NCBI GenBank assembly: GCA_009691855.1
Contig: SIAI01000005.1
Coordinates: 1 to 64,000 of the forward strand
Direction: 5' to 3'
DNA length: 64,000 nucleotides
Source: Planctomycetota bacterium
GTDB taxonomy: Bacteria; Planctomycetota; UBA1135; GCA-002686595
The notes beneath the pieces were generated by a model. It made no database searches and was not told where the DNA came from. It saw only the letters and a program-made list of their open reading frames with translations. Positions 2,079 to 25,450 of this stretch are shown one piece after another. Made by a program: the position numbers and the translations under genes. The first letter of the stretch is position 1, and each line of letters opens with the position of its first letter.

Positions 2079-3521
2079 CTACCCCCGTGCGGAGGGACGA
2101 GCGCTGAGAACGCGCTCGGCGACGGCCAGGAGGAGGGCGAAGGCGAGGCCCATCGGCCAACTCAGGAAGCGGTTGGCCAGCACGGCGAGCAGCGTCAGCG
2201 CCACCGCCAGGGTAGAGAGCAGGCCGGCCCAGTCGATCTCGACCCGCAGCTCGTCCGGCGCCTTGGAGAGCGGCAGGCCGCGCACGCAGCGTGGGTAGAG
2301 CGCGCGCAGCAGCAGCAGCCCGAGCAGGGTGGCCGGAAGCCACAGGCGCGCGATCAACCCTCCCTGGCCAAGCGCCAGGCCGAGGATCAGCAGCCCGAGG
2401 TAGAGCGGCAGGAGCCAGCGCACGAACAGGGCCTTGATCGTCCCGCGAACCAGCGCCTCGCTCGTGCGCGGGGCAAGCCGCAGGATCCACGCCGCCTCGG
2501 GCGTCTCGCTCAGGGGAACATGGGTCAGGAGCAGCGGCAGGTAGATGCCGACCGTGAACAGGAGCAGCGCCAGCACGTCGCCGCGCCAGGCGTCGCCGGG
2601 GGCCTGCGCTCCGCTCGCGCCGAGCAGCAGGAAGGCGAGCGGGATGCCCAGCATCGGCAGCGTGCGCAGGGCGACCTCGCGCTCGCGGGGCAGGGCGGCG
2701 AAGACGAGCTCGAAGGCACCGCGCTCCTCTTCACGTACCCACAGGCGCCGCGCCAGACGCCGCAGGGGCTCGAGCGCGCGCTCGAACGCGCCGCGGCGGA
2801 CCCCGGGGCGCTGCTCGGAGGCGGGCACGGCGAGCAGGGCCCCCACGCTCGCCAGGCAGACGATAGCGGGTACGACGAGCGCTCCGCCGCCGCGCACCAC
2901 GGCGGTCGCGAACCAGGCCGGCGGCAGCCAGGCGATCGCGGCCGCATCCGGCGTGAGGCGCGCGAGCTCGGGCAGTCGGCCCAGCAAGGCCAGCAGCGCG
3001 ATCACGAGCCCCGCGAAGAGCGCCGTTTCGAACAACACGAACAGCGCCTGAGCGCGCGCCAGGAACAGCTGCTGGGCCCAGATCAGGAGCGCGGCGAGCC
3101 CGAGCCCCTGGGCCAGCGCGAGCGCGGGCAGCCCCAGGCGCGCGGCGAGGCCGAAGGCCTCCGGCGCCAGCAGCGCGAAGGGCGCACACCAGGCGCCGAC
3201 CAGGGCGGCGAGGAGCAGTCCGAGGTGCAGGACGCGCGCGAGGGTGCGCTCCGTCGCTCGCGCCGGCAGCGCGGCGAGCCATTCGAGGCCCGGATCCTGG
3301 CGCAGGATTGCGCCCAGGTCCGAGAGCAGCGGTGGGCCGAGCACCAGGGCTCCGGTCGCGAGCGCGAAGAACGCGTAGGGGAACGCGGGCAAGAGGTCGC
3401 GCACCAGGAGCGCCAGCCCCGCCGCCAGCGCGCTCAGGAACAAGAGCGCCGGGATCGGCCCGCCGCCGCGGCGCGCCATCGCCAGGCGCGCGCCGAATAG
3501 GATCCAGGTGCGGCGCAGCAC
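2079..3521 (-). CDS. Multi-span membrane protein, ABC-2-like permease
   Basis: 480 aa, many hydrophobic segments; motif-level similarity to the permease at 32116-33813 (e.g. TPEAAWILRLAPRTSEALVRGTIKAL vs TPEARWIFVASPLESEAELVRGATKGL). Confidence 0.65.
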   Translation of the reverse strand: MLRRTWILFGARLAMARRGGGPIPALLFLSALAAGLALLVRDLLPAFPYAFFALATGALVLGPPLLSDLGAILRQDPGLEWLAALPARATERTLARVLHLGLLLAALVGAWCAPFALLAPEAFGLAARLGLPALALAQGLGLAALLIWAQQLFLARAQALFVLFETALFAGLVIALLALLGRLPELARLTPDAAAIAWLPPAWFATAVVRGGGALVVPAIVCLASVGALLAVPASEQRPGVRRGAFERALEPLRRLARRLWVREEERGAFELVFAALPREREVALRTLPMLGIPLAFLLLGASGAQAPGDAWRGDVLALLLFTVGIYLPLLLTHVPLSETPEAAWILRLAPRTSEALVRGTIKALFVRWLLPLYLGLLILGLALGQGGLIARLWLPATLLGLLLLRALYPRCVRGLPLSKAPDELRVEIDWAGLLSTLAVALTLLAVLANRFLSWPMGLAFALLLAVAERVLSARPSARG

Positions 3522-7284: not shown

Positions 7285-8058
7285 TCAAGAGCCCAGGATC
7301 CGGGCGGCAACTTGACGCGGATCCTCGGAATGAGTCAACACCCGGAAGACCTCTTCGAGGGAGCTTCCTCCGCCGGCCTGAGAGCGCAGCTCCTGCATGC
7401 TTCCCAGCGCGAGCAGCCGCCCCTGGTGCAGGATCGCCATGCGATCGCAGACGCGCTCCACCACCTCCAGGAGGTGCGAGGTCACGATCACCCCGCCACC
7501 TCGATCGGCCCAGCCGCGCATCAGCGCCTGGATGACCATCGCGGTTGATGTATCGAGCCCGGTCAGCGGCTCGTCGAGCACCAGCAGCGGGGGCCGGGGC
7601 AGCAAGGCGCAGGCGATGGCGACCTTCTGGCGCATGCCGCGCGAGAAGCCGCTCACGGGATCGTCCAGGCGCCCTGCGAGCTCGAGCGCGCCCATCAGCC
7701 GCTCGCCCTCCAAAGTGATCCGCCGGTCATCGAGGCCGTGCAGGCGGCCGACGAGGTCGAGGTGCTCTCTTGGGGTCAAATTGGAGTACAAAGGAGCCCC
7801 ATCTGGTACGTAACCAAGATTCCTGCGCGCCTCGATGGGGGCCCGATGGACGTCCGCTCCGGCGATCTCCACACGGCCCGCGTCGGGTTCGAGGAGCCCG
7901 CACAGGATCCTCAGCGCGGTGGTCTTCCCGGCGCCGTTCGTGCCCAGGAGCCCGACGACTTCTCCCGCGGAGACCTGCAGCGTGAATTCGGCGAGCGCCA
8001 AACGCTCGCCGTACCGCTTGCCGACTCCAGAGAACGAGGCGAGGACCGCGCTCGTCAC
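7285..8058 (-). CDS. ABC transporter ATP-binding protein
   Basis: Walker A GTNGAGKTT, signature SGFSRGMRQKV, Walker B LLVLDEPLTGLD, H-loop VTSHLLE. Confidence 0.95.
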   Translation of the reverse strand: MTSAVLASFSGVGKRYGERLALAEFTLQVSAGEVVGLLGTNGAGKTTALRILCGLLEPDAGRVEIAGADVHRAPIEARRNLGYVPDGAPLYSNLTPREHLDLVGRLHGLDDRRITLEGERLMGALELAGRLDDPVSGFSRGMRQKVAIACALLPRPPLLVLDEPLTGLDTSTAMVIQALMRGWADRGGGVIVTSHLLEVVERVCDRMAILHQGRLLALGSMQELRSQAGGGSSLEEVFRVLTHSEDPRQVAARILGS

Positions 8059-8063
8059 TCGCG

Positions 8064-8777
8064 CTAGCCCGCCGCCAGGACCTCGACCGGGATGCCCGTC
8101 TTGGTCGTCACGAGCTCGGCGATCTGGCTCATGCGGCTCTTGGAGATCGGCATCTCCTTCTTGCCCTTGGCTTTGGCCGGGGTGCTGATGTGCACTCCGG
8201 CGGGGCGGATCTCGGTCAGCTTGGTGATCCAGGCCTTCACCTCGGTCTCGTTGCTGTTGTCCACTTCACCGCGCACGAAGCGCGTCTGGACGATCAGTCG
8301 CTCGGCGCCGAGGCGCCCGAGGCTCTCCACCACGCCCTTGAACTGCTTGGGGTTGGAGCCGGTGAGGGCTGCCCAGGTCTTCTGCGTACCGGCGTCAAGG
8401 CGCAGGATAGTCTGATCGAAGAAGGTCAGCGCGTGGCGCAGGTTGGGAGAGTCCAGCGGGGTCGCATCCGCCACCAGACACATCAGCGCCTTCGGGAAGT
8501 GCTTGTCCAGGAGCTGGCGCACGTTCTCGCAGATCTGGTGGAACTCCGGGTGCTTTGTGGGGCCTTCGTTGCCCGCTTCTACCACCAGGGCCTGGATCTT
8601 GTCGGCGGCACGAACGAGCTCGATGAGCTTGCGCGCCACGGCCGTCACCACGATCGCCTGACTCGGGAAGCGATTCGCCCGCAGGGTCCCGATCGTCGGG
8701 CGGACGATCACAGCGCGTCCGAGGCGGACGTAATCAATAGGGCCGAGGACGATCTCCTCTTGGAGACGTGAGATCAT
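8064..8777 (-). CDS. Radical-SAM-like protein lacking the CxxxCxxC motif (putative pseudoenzyme)
   Basis: Layout of the small radical-SAM family (GPIDYVRLGRAV..., NEGPTKHPEF, LRLDAGTQKTW, VQTRFVRGEVDNSNETEVKAWI, IRPAGVHI, TKTGIPVEVL), but only two Cys, neither in a cluster motif. Start at MISRLQ (8777) preferred. Confidence 0.65.
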   Translation of the reverse strand: MISRLQEEIVLGPIDYVRLGRAVIVRPTIGTLRANRFPSQAIVVTAVARKLIELVRAADKIQALVVEAGNEGPTKHPEFHQICENVRQLLDKHFPKALMCLVADATPLDSPNLRHALTFFDQTILRLDAGTQKTWAALTGSNPKQFKGVVESLGRLGAERLIVQTRFVRGEVDNSNETEVKAWITKLTEIRPAGVHISTPAKAKGKKEMPISKSRMSQIAELVTTKTGIPVEVLAAG

Positions 8778-8905: not shown

Positions 8906-9130
8906 CTACTGGCTGTTCGAGTCCGGTGGGTAGTTCCGTGCTGGGCGTAGGGCCCAGGCGAGGAGCGCGAGGGCGAGTCCCGTGCGCAGGGGGTGCTGGG
9001 CGGCGGTCCGCGCCCAGCGCAGGGGCAAGGGCTCGGCCGAGGCCGCGGGGTGGGAGTCGTTCCAGGCGAGGAGCGCTCCGACCAGCAGGGCGCAGGCGAT
9101 TCCGATGCAGGTGGTGGCGGACGGTTTCAT
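8906..9130 (-). CDS. Small hypothetical membrane protein
   Basis: 74 aa with two hydrophobic segments; sits between annotated genes. Confidence 0.4.
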   Translation of the reverse strand: MKPSATTCIGIACALLVGALLAWNDSHPAASAEPLPLRWARTAAQHPLRTGLALALLAWALRPARNYPPDSNSQ

Positions 9131-9321: not shown

Positions 9322-9855
9322 ATGTACTTCGACTACCTGAACGCCCTCGTCTTCGCCGCGGTCGGGTTCGTTTTCGTCTTCGCGAACCTCATCCTGGCCT
9401 CGGTCCTGCGCCCCAAGCGCAAGACCGACGTGGGGCTCGAGACCTACGAGTGCGGCGAGGAGACGATCGGCGACGCCTGGATCCAGTTCGACATCCGCTA
9501 CTACACGGTGGCGCTGGTCTACGTCATCTTCGCCGTCGAGATCGCGTTCCTGTTCCCGTGGGCGCTGGTTCTGGGCGACGCGGTGGCGAACCAGGGCGCG
9601 GCCAAGGGTGCCGGGATCGGGGCCTTCGTGCTGCTCGAGGGCGTGCTGTTCATCGTGATCCTGTTCCTCGGCCTCGCCTACGTCTGGGCCAAGGGCGATC
9701 TCGACTGGGTGCTCTCCTACCGCCACTCGACCTACCAGCCCCCGGAGCTGCGCGCGAAGATCAACCTGCCGCAGGTCAAGGAGATCGAGGCCGCGCAGGA
9801 GGCCCAGAAGGCCGCCGAGCCCAAACCCGCCCCGGACACCGAAGAGGCCGCCTGA
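9322..9855 (+). CDS. nuoA: NADH-quinone oxidoreductase subunit A
   Basis: [48 protein letters not shown]; first gene of the nuo operon. Confidence 0.96.
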
Positions 9856-23101: not shown

Positions 23102-23458
23102 TCAAGTGTAGCGCTGCACGAACTCGAGCAACGAACGCGCGAACACCGCCACCGTCAGCAGCGCGAGGCCCAGGCGGATCCACGGCTTCACCTTGCGGTT
23201 CTGGTTCAGCGCCGCGATGAACAGCACCGCCGAACCGAGTCCGAGGCCCAGCGCCCAGCCGTGCAGGAAGCGATTCTCGCTCCAGATCCAGGTGTGGTGC
23301 GACCACAGCGCCAGCGCCCCGAACACGAGCCACGCCACCAGCGTCCAGGCCAGCACCGGGATCGCGCGCTTGTTCAACAGGCCGACCACGCCCAGCGTCG
23401 GCAGCAAGAGCAGCGACACGAAGCCGCTGGCGAGTTCGGGCAACGCTCCGAGGTCCAT
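23102..23458 (-). CDS. Small membrane protein
   Basis: 118 aa with about four hydrophobic segments. Confidence 0.6.
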   Translation of the reverse strand: MDLGALPELASGFVSLLLLPTLGVVGLLNKRAIPVLAWTLVAWLVFGALALWSHHTWIWSENRFLHGWALGLGLGSAVLFIAALNQNRKVKPWIRLGLALLTVAVFARSLLEFVQRYT

Positions 23459-23521
23459 CGAGCGCAGGAGGATAACGAGCGCGGCGCGCGGAAGAAGAGC
23501 CGCGTCGCTCGCGCGCTCAGC

Positions 23522-25450
23522 TCACGGCTTGCGCACGAGTTCGACCACGTGCTCCGTCACCACGCCCTTCGTGAGCGTCACCTCGACCGCGGGCACGGGT
23601 TCGTAGCCGGGGACCACAGGGACCTCGAGCCGGTAGCGGCCGGCCTCCTTCTTGTGCAGCGTGATCGTGCCACCGCCGCTGCTCGAAGAGCGGAAGTCTG
23701 GCTGACCCTCGAGAGGCTCGAGCTCGGGAAAGGCGCCGTCGGCCCAGGGGATCTCGGTCGTGCCGTCGCGCAGGACGACGCGCAGCCCGGTCGGACGCGC
23801 GAGGCGCAGCTCGACCTCGTTCGTGCCCGCTCGCGCCTGGACGGTCTCGGAAGCGTGCGCATAGGTGCTCCCGTACACGCCGACGACGACCTCGCCCTGC
23901 GGCGCGCGGATGCGCCAGCGCCGCAGGGCCTCGTCCCACTCCGCCCTCTCGTGCGACCAGCCGTACAGACCCTCGGGCATGGCGCAGTACCAGCTCACGC
24001 TCTCGCTCGTCACCTCGACACCGGTGTCGTCCTCGATGCAACGCACGAGCACCTCGCACGGCGGCGGCACGACCACGCGCGCGTCGCGCAAGCCCGCGTC
24101 GCCGACGGTGAGCACGGCGTGAAAGGCGAGCTCGTCGAGCTCCACCTCGTAGCGACCCGGCTGCACCGCCGGCGCCGACCAGCGATAGGCCGCGGGCGGA
24201 TCGCCCTCCGGCTCCATCGCCGAGCTGGCGAGCGAGAAGCGTCCGTCGCCGCCGTCGAGTGGCGTGTCCAGGAGCTCGAAAGCCAGCTCGAACTCGCCGA
24301 GCTCCCAGGCGGCGGGCAACACGAGCGTGCCCTCGAACGGCACCTTGCGGCGCGGCTCCAGCTCCTTCAGGGTCAGGCTCACGCGCGCGCGTCCACCGGC
24401 CACGACCTCCGCCTCGGCTTCGGCCAGCACCAGCGGATCGCGCCAGTAGTCGCCGATCTCGGCCTTGACGCGGTACGGGCCGACGGGGAGCGCCTCGACG
24501 AGGACCCGGCCGGCGGCGTGCACCTCCGCCTCGAACGCCGGCGCGTGCTCGCTGCCGAAGAGGCGCAGCCTCGTGCCCGCAGCGCCGACGGTACCGAGCA
24601 GCTCGACCTCGAGCTCGCCCGCGCGCTCCAGCAGCAGGATGCGCTCGCCGCCGCGCTGCTCGTCGATCTCGATGCGGCCCCAGGCGTAGCCCGGGCTGCG
24701 CGCGTAACAGGTGCGCGTGCCGAGCGACGAATCGCCGGGCGGCAGCGTCACCGGCGACGGCCCGAGGTCGCGCTCGCTCGCGGCCGCCGGCCCCGGATGT
24801 CCGCACTGCGATTCCGGCCAGCCGCTGACCTCGGTGAGGAACACCGGGGCGAGCTCGCGCCCGCTCTCGCGATCGCGGACGGAGAGCAGTGATGCGCTCG
24901 GCCAGCGCGCCGAGAGCGCGAGCCAGCCGTCCTCCGGCAGCGCGATGCGCTCCGAGGTGTCCTCGCCGCACACGGCCCGTCGTCCGCCGAGCTCCACGTC
25001 CGTCACGCCGAGAGCCTGGACCGTGGGCTCGCGCGGGAGTGCAGTGCTCCAGGCGCCACCGTGAACCTCGACCTCGTGCCACGAGCCCGAGTCCCCGGTC
25101 CACAGCACGAAGGAAAAGCTGCCGTCCTCGGCGCGATGCTCCGCGCCTTGCTCGTCGAGCACGACGATCGTGCCCGCGAGCGGCAGCGTCTCGGCCCCGC
25201 CACTCGCGGCCGTCGGCTCGGACTCCGGCAGCACCCGCGGCGTCACCACGGCGGGCTCGGTCGCGAGCACGCGCGTCTCGATCTGCTGCGCTGCTGCCGG
25301 CGCGAGCTCGGCCGGCGGGTCTTCGCGCACGCTCGGCGCGCTCTCGGGAGCGGCCGCGTTGGCGCCGCGCCGCCCGCCGTCGAGCCGCAGCAAGAACGCC
25401 GCCAGGACGACGAGCGCGAGCAGACCGAAGGCGAGCGCGACCCTCCTCAT
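23522..25450 (-). CDS. Membrane-anchored secreted protein, tandem family member A
   Basis: N-terminal TM MRRVALAFGLLALVVLAAFLL; shares YARSPGYAWGRIEID, VPFEGTLVLPA.W, VVPPPCEVLVRC, GYEPVPAVEV...LVRKP with neighbours. Confidence 0.8.
   Translation of the reverse strand: MRRVALAFGLLALVVLAAFLLRLDGGRRGANAAAPESAPSVREDPPAELAPAAAQQIETRVLATEPAVVTPRVLPESEPTAASGGAETLPLAGTIVVLDEQGAEHRAEDGSFSFVLWTGDSGSWHEVEVHGGAWSTALPREPTVQALGVTDVELGGRRAVCGEDTSERIALPEDGWLALSARWPSASLLSVRDRESGRELAPVFLTEVSGWPESQCGHPGPAAASERDLGPSPVTLPPGDSSLGTRTCYARSPGYAWGRIEIDEQRGGERILLLERAGELEVELLGTVGAAGTRLRLFGSEHAPAFEAEVHAAGRVLVEALPVGPYRVKAEIGDYWRDPLVLAEAEAEVVAGGRARVSLTLKELEPRRKVPFEGTLVLPAAWELGEFELAFELLDTPLDGGDGRFSLASSAMEPEGDPPAAYRWSAPAVQPGRYEVELDELAFHAVLTVGDAGLRDARVVVPPPCEVLVRCIEDDTGVEVTSESVSWYCAMPEGLYGWSHERAEWDEALRRWRIRAPQGEVVVGVYGSTYAHASETVQARAGTNEVELRLARPTGLRVVLRDGTTEIPWADGAFPELEPLEGQPDFRSSSSGGGTITLHKKEAGRYRLEVPVVPGYEPVPAVEVTLTKGVVTEHVVELVRKP

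Follow-up and report, generated by a model that had tools for sequence, protein, structure and literature searches.

Radical-SAM proteins form a very large superfamily, recognised by its cluster motif; the [4Fe-4S] cluster binds and cleaves SAM, and holds its amino and carboxylate groups. A close example is the canonical radical-SAM protein of a sister family in the same order of Planctomycetota (f5; loci L031–L038), which is probably of the COG0731 type. It has the CX3CX2C cluster loop and the motifs GNGEPTLHP, KLEWGT, DN and LDRPP, and the representative from genome G100 (L031) passes the threshold of Pfam PF04055 (37.2 bits; cut-off 29.5). The window analysed here, a 64,000-nucleotide stretch of Planctomycetota contig SIAI01000005.1, encodes a protein (P0001, referred to as pseudo-rSAM; Table 1) with the same barrel, which aligns end to end with the sister-family protein and shares its GP, P-xx-H, G130, N174, E179 and W183 positions; the cluster loop, however, is missing. 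A literature search, which was not exhaustive, found no described radical-SAM family in which the motif was dropped but the gene kept.

Table 1. Features of the pseudo-rSAM locus (window coordinates)
Feature	Position	Strand	Basis and remarks
Cluster-less radical-SAM-fold protein (pseudo-rSAM, P0001)	8064..8777	-	237 aa plus stop; ORF, AlphaFold, Foldseek, orthologues, dN/dS
Scar of deleted cluster loop	8682..8714	-	Junction near V25, exact site within the stretch uncertain; gap of ~22 columns relative to the CX3CX2C of relatives
ABC transporter ATPase, next gene downstream	7285..8058	-	PF00005, E=2e-29; 5 bp past the pseudo-rSAM stop codon
Small membrane-type protein (74 aa), next gene upstream	8906..9130	-	RWxRxAxxHPLR between two hydrophobic stretches; HMM
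Divergently oriented nuoA, which opens the complex I operon	9322..9855	+	PF00507, E=3.9e-30; context, not claimed as a working part

The P0001 reading frame is uninterrupted from its ATG at position 8777. The conserved blocks listed by the first-pass annotation were all found in its translation (LGPIDYVRLGRAVIV, NEGPTKHPEF, LRLDAGT, VQTRFVRGEVDNSNETEVKAWI, IRPAGVHI and TGIPVEVL), as were the only two Cys residues it had counted, C83 and C100, neither of which lies in a cluster motif. The same annotation had read VIVRPTIGTLRANRFPSQ as the segment standing where CxxxCxxC should be. The motif is indeed absent from this site, but alignment with motif-bearing relatives left about 22 columns empty behind V25; since the entire cluster loop is missing, VIVRPTIGTLRANRFPSQ is not a degenerate, mutated motif. 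Neither CX3CX2C nor any other conserved set of Cys residues able to hold a [4Fe-4S] cluster was found.

Library searches gave no match of P0001 to Radical_SAM PF04055, whose gathering threshold it fails to reach, and neither Pfam nor NCBIfam recognised it. Whether the query was the single sequence or the family profile, Pfam, NCBIfam and the PDB returned chance-level matches only (YfbR-like, YjjW, HisF, TadA), so that the libraries alone would label the protein as unknown. An AlphaFold model built with 55 family sequences as input (pLDDT 92.2, pTM 0.86) nevertheless adopted the partial TIM-barrel of radical-SAM enzymes. In a Foldseek search of the PDB its best matches were NifB, PFL-activase, SuiB, lysine 2,3-aminomutase and viperin, and nearly all top matches were radical-SAM enzymes with a probability of 1.00. 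NifB, PFL-activating enzyme and viperin (7bi7, 3cb8, 6b4c) resemble P0001 in fold (TM-score 0.58–0.62 on the query), although they share only 11–16% identity with it and are cluster-bearing, known catalysts.

Evidence for common descent with cluster-bearing proteins came from sequence searches and from trees. When the proteins of 101 related genomes were searched with P0001, 66 genomes gave matches, which included the intact L031 (E=8e-20 over residues 36–234), and the profile of the window's clade aligned end to end with that of the sister family (hhalign probability 99.9%, E=4.6e-35). The similarity of P0001 to radical-SAM proteins is therefore well above chance, and the radical-SAM assignment of the first-pass annotation has gained both a structural and a profile match. 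Scanning contigs with P0001 alone as query yielded no matches, and a profile made from all 55 family proteins was too loose to serve as a query. A specific link to TYW1 was also considered and found unsupported, the sister-family profile having found no TYW1 in the PDB.

The proteins of the window's own family, which consists of uncultured Planctomycetota, formed a single clade (support 100/100). The tree contained 56 of them: 47 lack the loop, one has a loop free of Cys, and eight carry CX3CX2C (L047, L054, L055, L057, L058, L065, L088 and L090). The loop-less proteins are short by about 17 residues (29 proteins) or about 22 (18, including P0001). Outside the family, the motif was intact in all 29 homologues checked: nine relatives within the same order (L031–L039) and 20 from other Planctomycetota, none of these 20 being Cys-less. 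As sister lineages and eight orthologues carry it, the CX3CX2C loop is ancestral. The Cys-less state is not private to the window, a point the first-pass annotation had left for an orthologue alignment; it is conserved across most of the family. In two trees every loop type represented by at least two proteins formed one clade, the eight CX3CX2C orthologues being grouped together and P0001 falling in a large Cys-less clade. The trees disagreed on whether the clades with loop deletions join, and AU tests rejected neither a single clade of deletions (p 0.41) nor a single clade of all Cys-less proteins (p 0.43). The cluster would thus have been lost between one and three separate times, numbers that these tests do not tell apart.

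The protein with the Cys-free loop (L061, 3286–4062) has a full-length cluster loop in which all three Cys are replaced, and it retains the GEP motif; its contig has a coverage of 1.65x according to the record name. It is a possible intermediate in cluster loss. Because this Cys-less protein keeps the E of GEP, the order of the single losses may differ among lineages.

The distribution of Cys residues also bears on whether pseudo-rSAM might be a subunit of an active radical-SAM enzyme whose cluster is supplied in trans by a partner. Two-subunit, non-canonical cluster sites do occur in the superfamily, the case described in PMC11048331 being Dph1-Dph2. The Cys-less clades, however, showed no conserved Cys position in the alignment, the called proteins of five members (L027, L048, L072, L074 and L089) contain no Cys at all, and no conserved Cys-rich partner was seen adjoining pseudo-rSAM, all of which makes such a subunit extremely improbable.

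Exactly one pseudo-rSAM copy was present in 75 of the 81 genomes of the family; the six genomes without a match are 72–88% complete. The order-level set comprised 154 genomes, and a class-level search returned the same set. The dN/dS test proposed in the first-pass annotation indicated purifying selection: a counting method gave 0.12 for P0001 against the nearest species, 0.09–0.24 over all Cys-less pairs tried and 0.18–0.32 for Cys-bearing pairs, although single values are rough because synonymous divergence is near saturation in some pairs. Genes without the cluster motif are therefore no more relaxed than those with it. Gene decay often starts with the loss of a catalytic motif, but a gene that is unbroken in dozens of genomes assembled independently of one another, in single copy and with dN/dS well below 1, has next to no chance of being a decaying one or an artefact of annotation or assembly. 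Orthologues with an intact motif had been expected to point to private decay or a sequencing error. Such orthologues do exist, as the clade of eight shows, but the conclusion drawn from them does not hold: the matches across genomes, the single copy in 75 of 81 and the dN/dS values rule it out.

Comparison with the sister family showed where conservation has moved. The sister family has an invariant GNGE, which in the window's family is mostly GxxD; the E of this SAM-binding motif is replaced by D in most members and by G in the window's genus. LDRPP is absent throughout. On the catalytic face, ranked conservation dropped in the β2-α2 and β6 loops; it increased on α1 (0.36 to 0.73), on α2 (0.50 to 0.75) and on the loops at the opposite end of the barrel. 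The top face gained less than the helices and bottom loops together (p=0.0013, counting each site as independent; residues were assigned to faces from the order of DSSP elements). Cys-bearing and Cys-less members share T45, A48, K60, D72 (which replaces E), N85, R87, L89, K92, W93, R114, K133 and P192, all absent from the sister family; the window's genus deviates from this signature at two sites, carrying a G at position 72 and an H at position 93. The sister family has no such α1/α2 signature and lies in a different gene neighbourhood. The eight loop-keeping orthologues, in contrast, match the Cys-less members in neighbourhood, in the new surface and in the loss of GNGE and LDRPP, and differ in having CX3CX2C; six of them match PF04055 (best E 9e-6). 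Since Cys-bearing members show the same conservation pattern, the new surface most likely predates deletion of the cluster, and the shift of conservation towards α1, α2 and the opposite loops apparently preceded cluster loss. As these eight members carry the same new surface, some of the family can accommodate a cluster and may make use of it.

Loss of catalytic residues in a fold kept under purifying selection is what characterises a pseudoenzyme, and pseudo-rSAM shows this pattern. The barrel mouth nevertheless remains highly conserved at P73, H76, G130, T131, K133, N174 and E179, and near-invariance of P73, H76, G130, K133 and N174 leaves room for a ligand-binding or a new catalytic role. 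Pseudo-rSAM could have given up radical chemistry for some other, cluster-independent catalysis that uses D72 (in most members), H76, K133 and N174. In Cys-less members H76, G130, K133 and N174 vary little or not at all and sit at, or close to, the C-terminal ends of strands, and the β4-α4 top loop is conserved as in canonical members. Since the newly fixed residues lie mostly on α1, α2 and the bottom loops, the top face has lost conservation overall and position 72 is a glycine in the window's own genus, we regard a new enzymatic activity as unlikely. A retained non-catalytic role, as the first-pass annotation had proposed, is favoured over decay by purifying selection together with the shift of conservation off the catalytic face; the role may be binding, regulation or scaffolding.

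In 43 of the 54 family loci with enough flanking sequence, the ABC ATPase gene is the next one downstream, in the same orientation. A home-made HMM built from 20 of the small HPLR membrane proteins, which had no Pfam match, located this protein upstream of pseudo-rSAM, or overlapping it, in about 40 of the 54 (half of the matches were seed sequences) and in none of the nine loci from other families of the order. Of 48 family loci, 31 had a divergent nuoA no more than 1.6 kb away. Loci L051, L084 and L086 have neither nuoA nor the ABC ATPase next to pseudo-rSAM, and their genomes contained no match to the ATPase at E<1e-50. In these three, a single open frame of 378–397 codons covers both the small membrane protein and pseudo-rSAM, which looks like a candidate fusion of the two in two genera, and the three frames may count as a single event. 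The linker is partly and weakly conserved (pN 0.43–0.50 against pS 0.73–0.83, the latter near saturation). The shared frame and the neighbourhood suggest a physical partnership and membrane tethering, although gene neighbourhood can reflect common ancestry instead of function. Elsewhere in the window, just downstream of a thioredoxin-TPR gene, positions 2079–3521 (reverse strand) encode a hydrophobic protein of 480 aa that matches no Pfam family, possibly the membrane part of a transporter.

The divergent position beside nuoA and the partial retention of the mouth residues would also suit a sensor, which would hold SAM or a product uncleaved in the old pocket and regulate its neighbours, the ABC ATPase and the complex I genes. 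With the cluster needed to coordinate the amino and carboxylate groups of SAM gone, constraint on GNGE and LDRPP lost and no DNA-binding domain seen in pseudo-rSAM, a sensor of this kind appears quite improbable.

The first-pass annotation had suggested looking for a catalytic paralogue, and an intact radical-SAM protein (L118) is encoded in the same genome, at G000:C3 near 23450–24242 (CNWRCVYC ... GNGEPTSS; PF04055 E=7e-9). It is of the same wide radical-SAM type as P0001, but has an intact cluster motif and lies further from the sister-family profile. Similar paralogues occur in many genomes of the family; in L123, two intact CNWxCxYC paralogues stand in tandem, their open frames beginning near 2229 and 2972. 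With L118 present in the genome, loss of catalysis by pseudo-rSAM becomes plausible.

The explanation that we favour, and consider rather likely as a whole, is that pseudo-rSAM is a conserved radical-SAM pseudoenzyme with a non-catalytic binding role, acting as a membrane scaffold or adaptor with its neighbours. The CX3CX2C cluster loop is the ancestral state. Across the family, catalytic-face residues have been lost (GNGE mostly becoming GxxD, and LDRPP disappearing) and a new conserved surface gained on α1, α2 and the opposite loops. Most members, P0001 included, no longer have the [4Fe-4S]-binding loop, yet purifying selection continues to act on their barrel, on the new surface and on the gene, which is kept in single copy. 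Without a cluster there would be no 5′-deoxyadenosyl radical, and, from what is known of the superfamily, the remaining function would be to bind a partner or ligand. With less certainty, the protein may work at the membrane's inner face, partnering the small HPLR protein as a scaffold or adaptor, joined in many genomes by the ABC ATPase encoded downstream. Pseudo-rSAM is best read as a pseudoenzyme shared across the family that probably associates with the membrane and serves there in binding or as a scaffold, with a putative partner and ligand. We put forward more tentatively a pseudoenzyme lineage with extant intermediates, forming a membrane-tethered scaffold with the HPLR protein and the ABC ATPase beside the complex I operon; equally tentative are the living intermediates it would comprise, namely proteins with the cluster and the new surface, with a loop lacking Cys, and with the loop deleted.

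A demanding metal enzyme thus seems to have been converted into a non-catalytic binding protein. Annotation based on the motif or on Pfam overlooks these cluster-less proteins. The extant orthologues would record the stages of the change, first an altered pocket and a new surface with the cluster still present, then deletion of the loop, and offer a natural series in which to test how a metalloenzyme turns into a binding protein.
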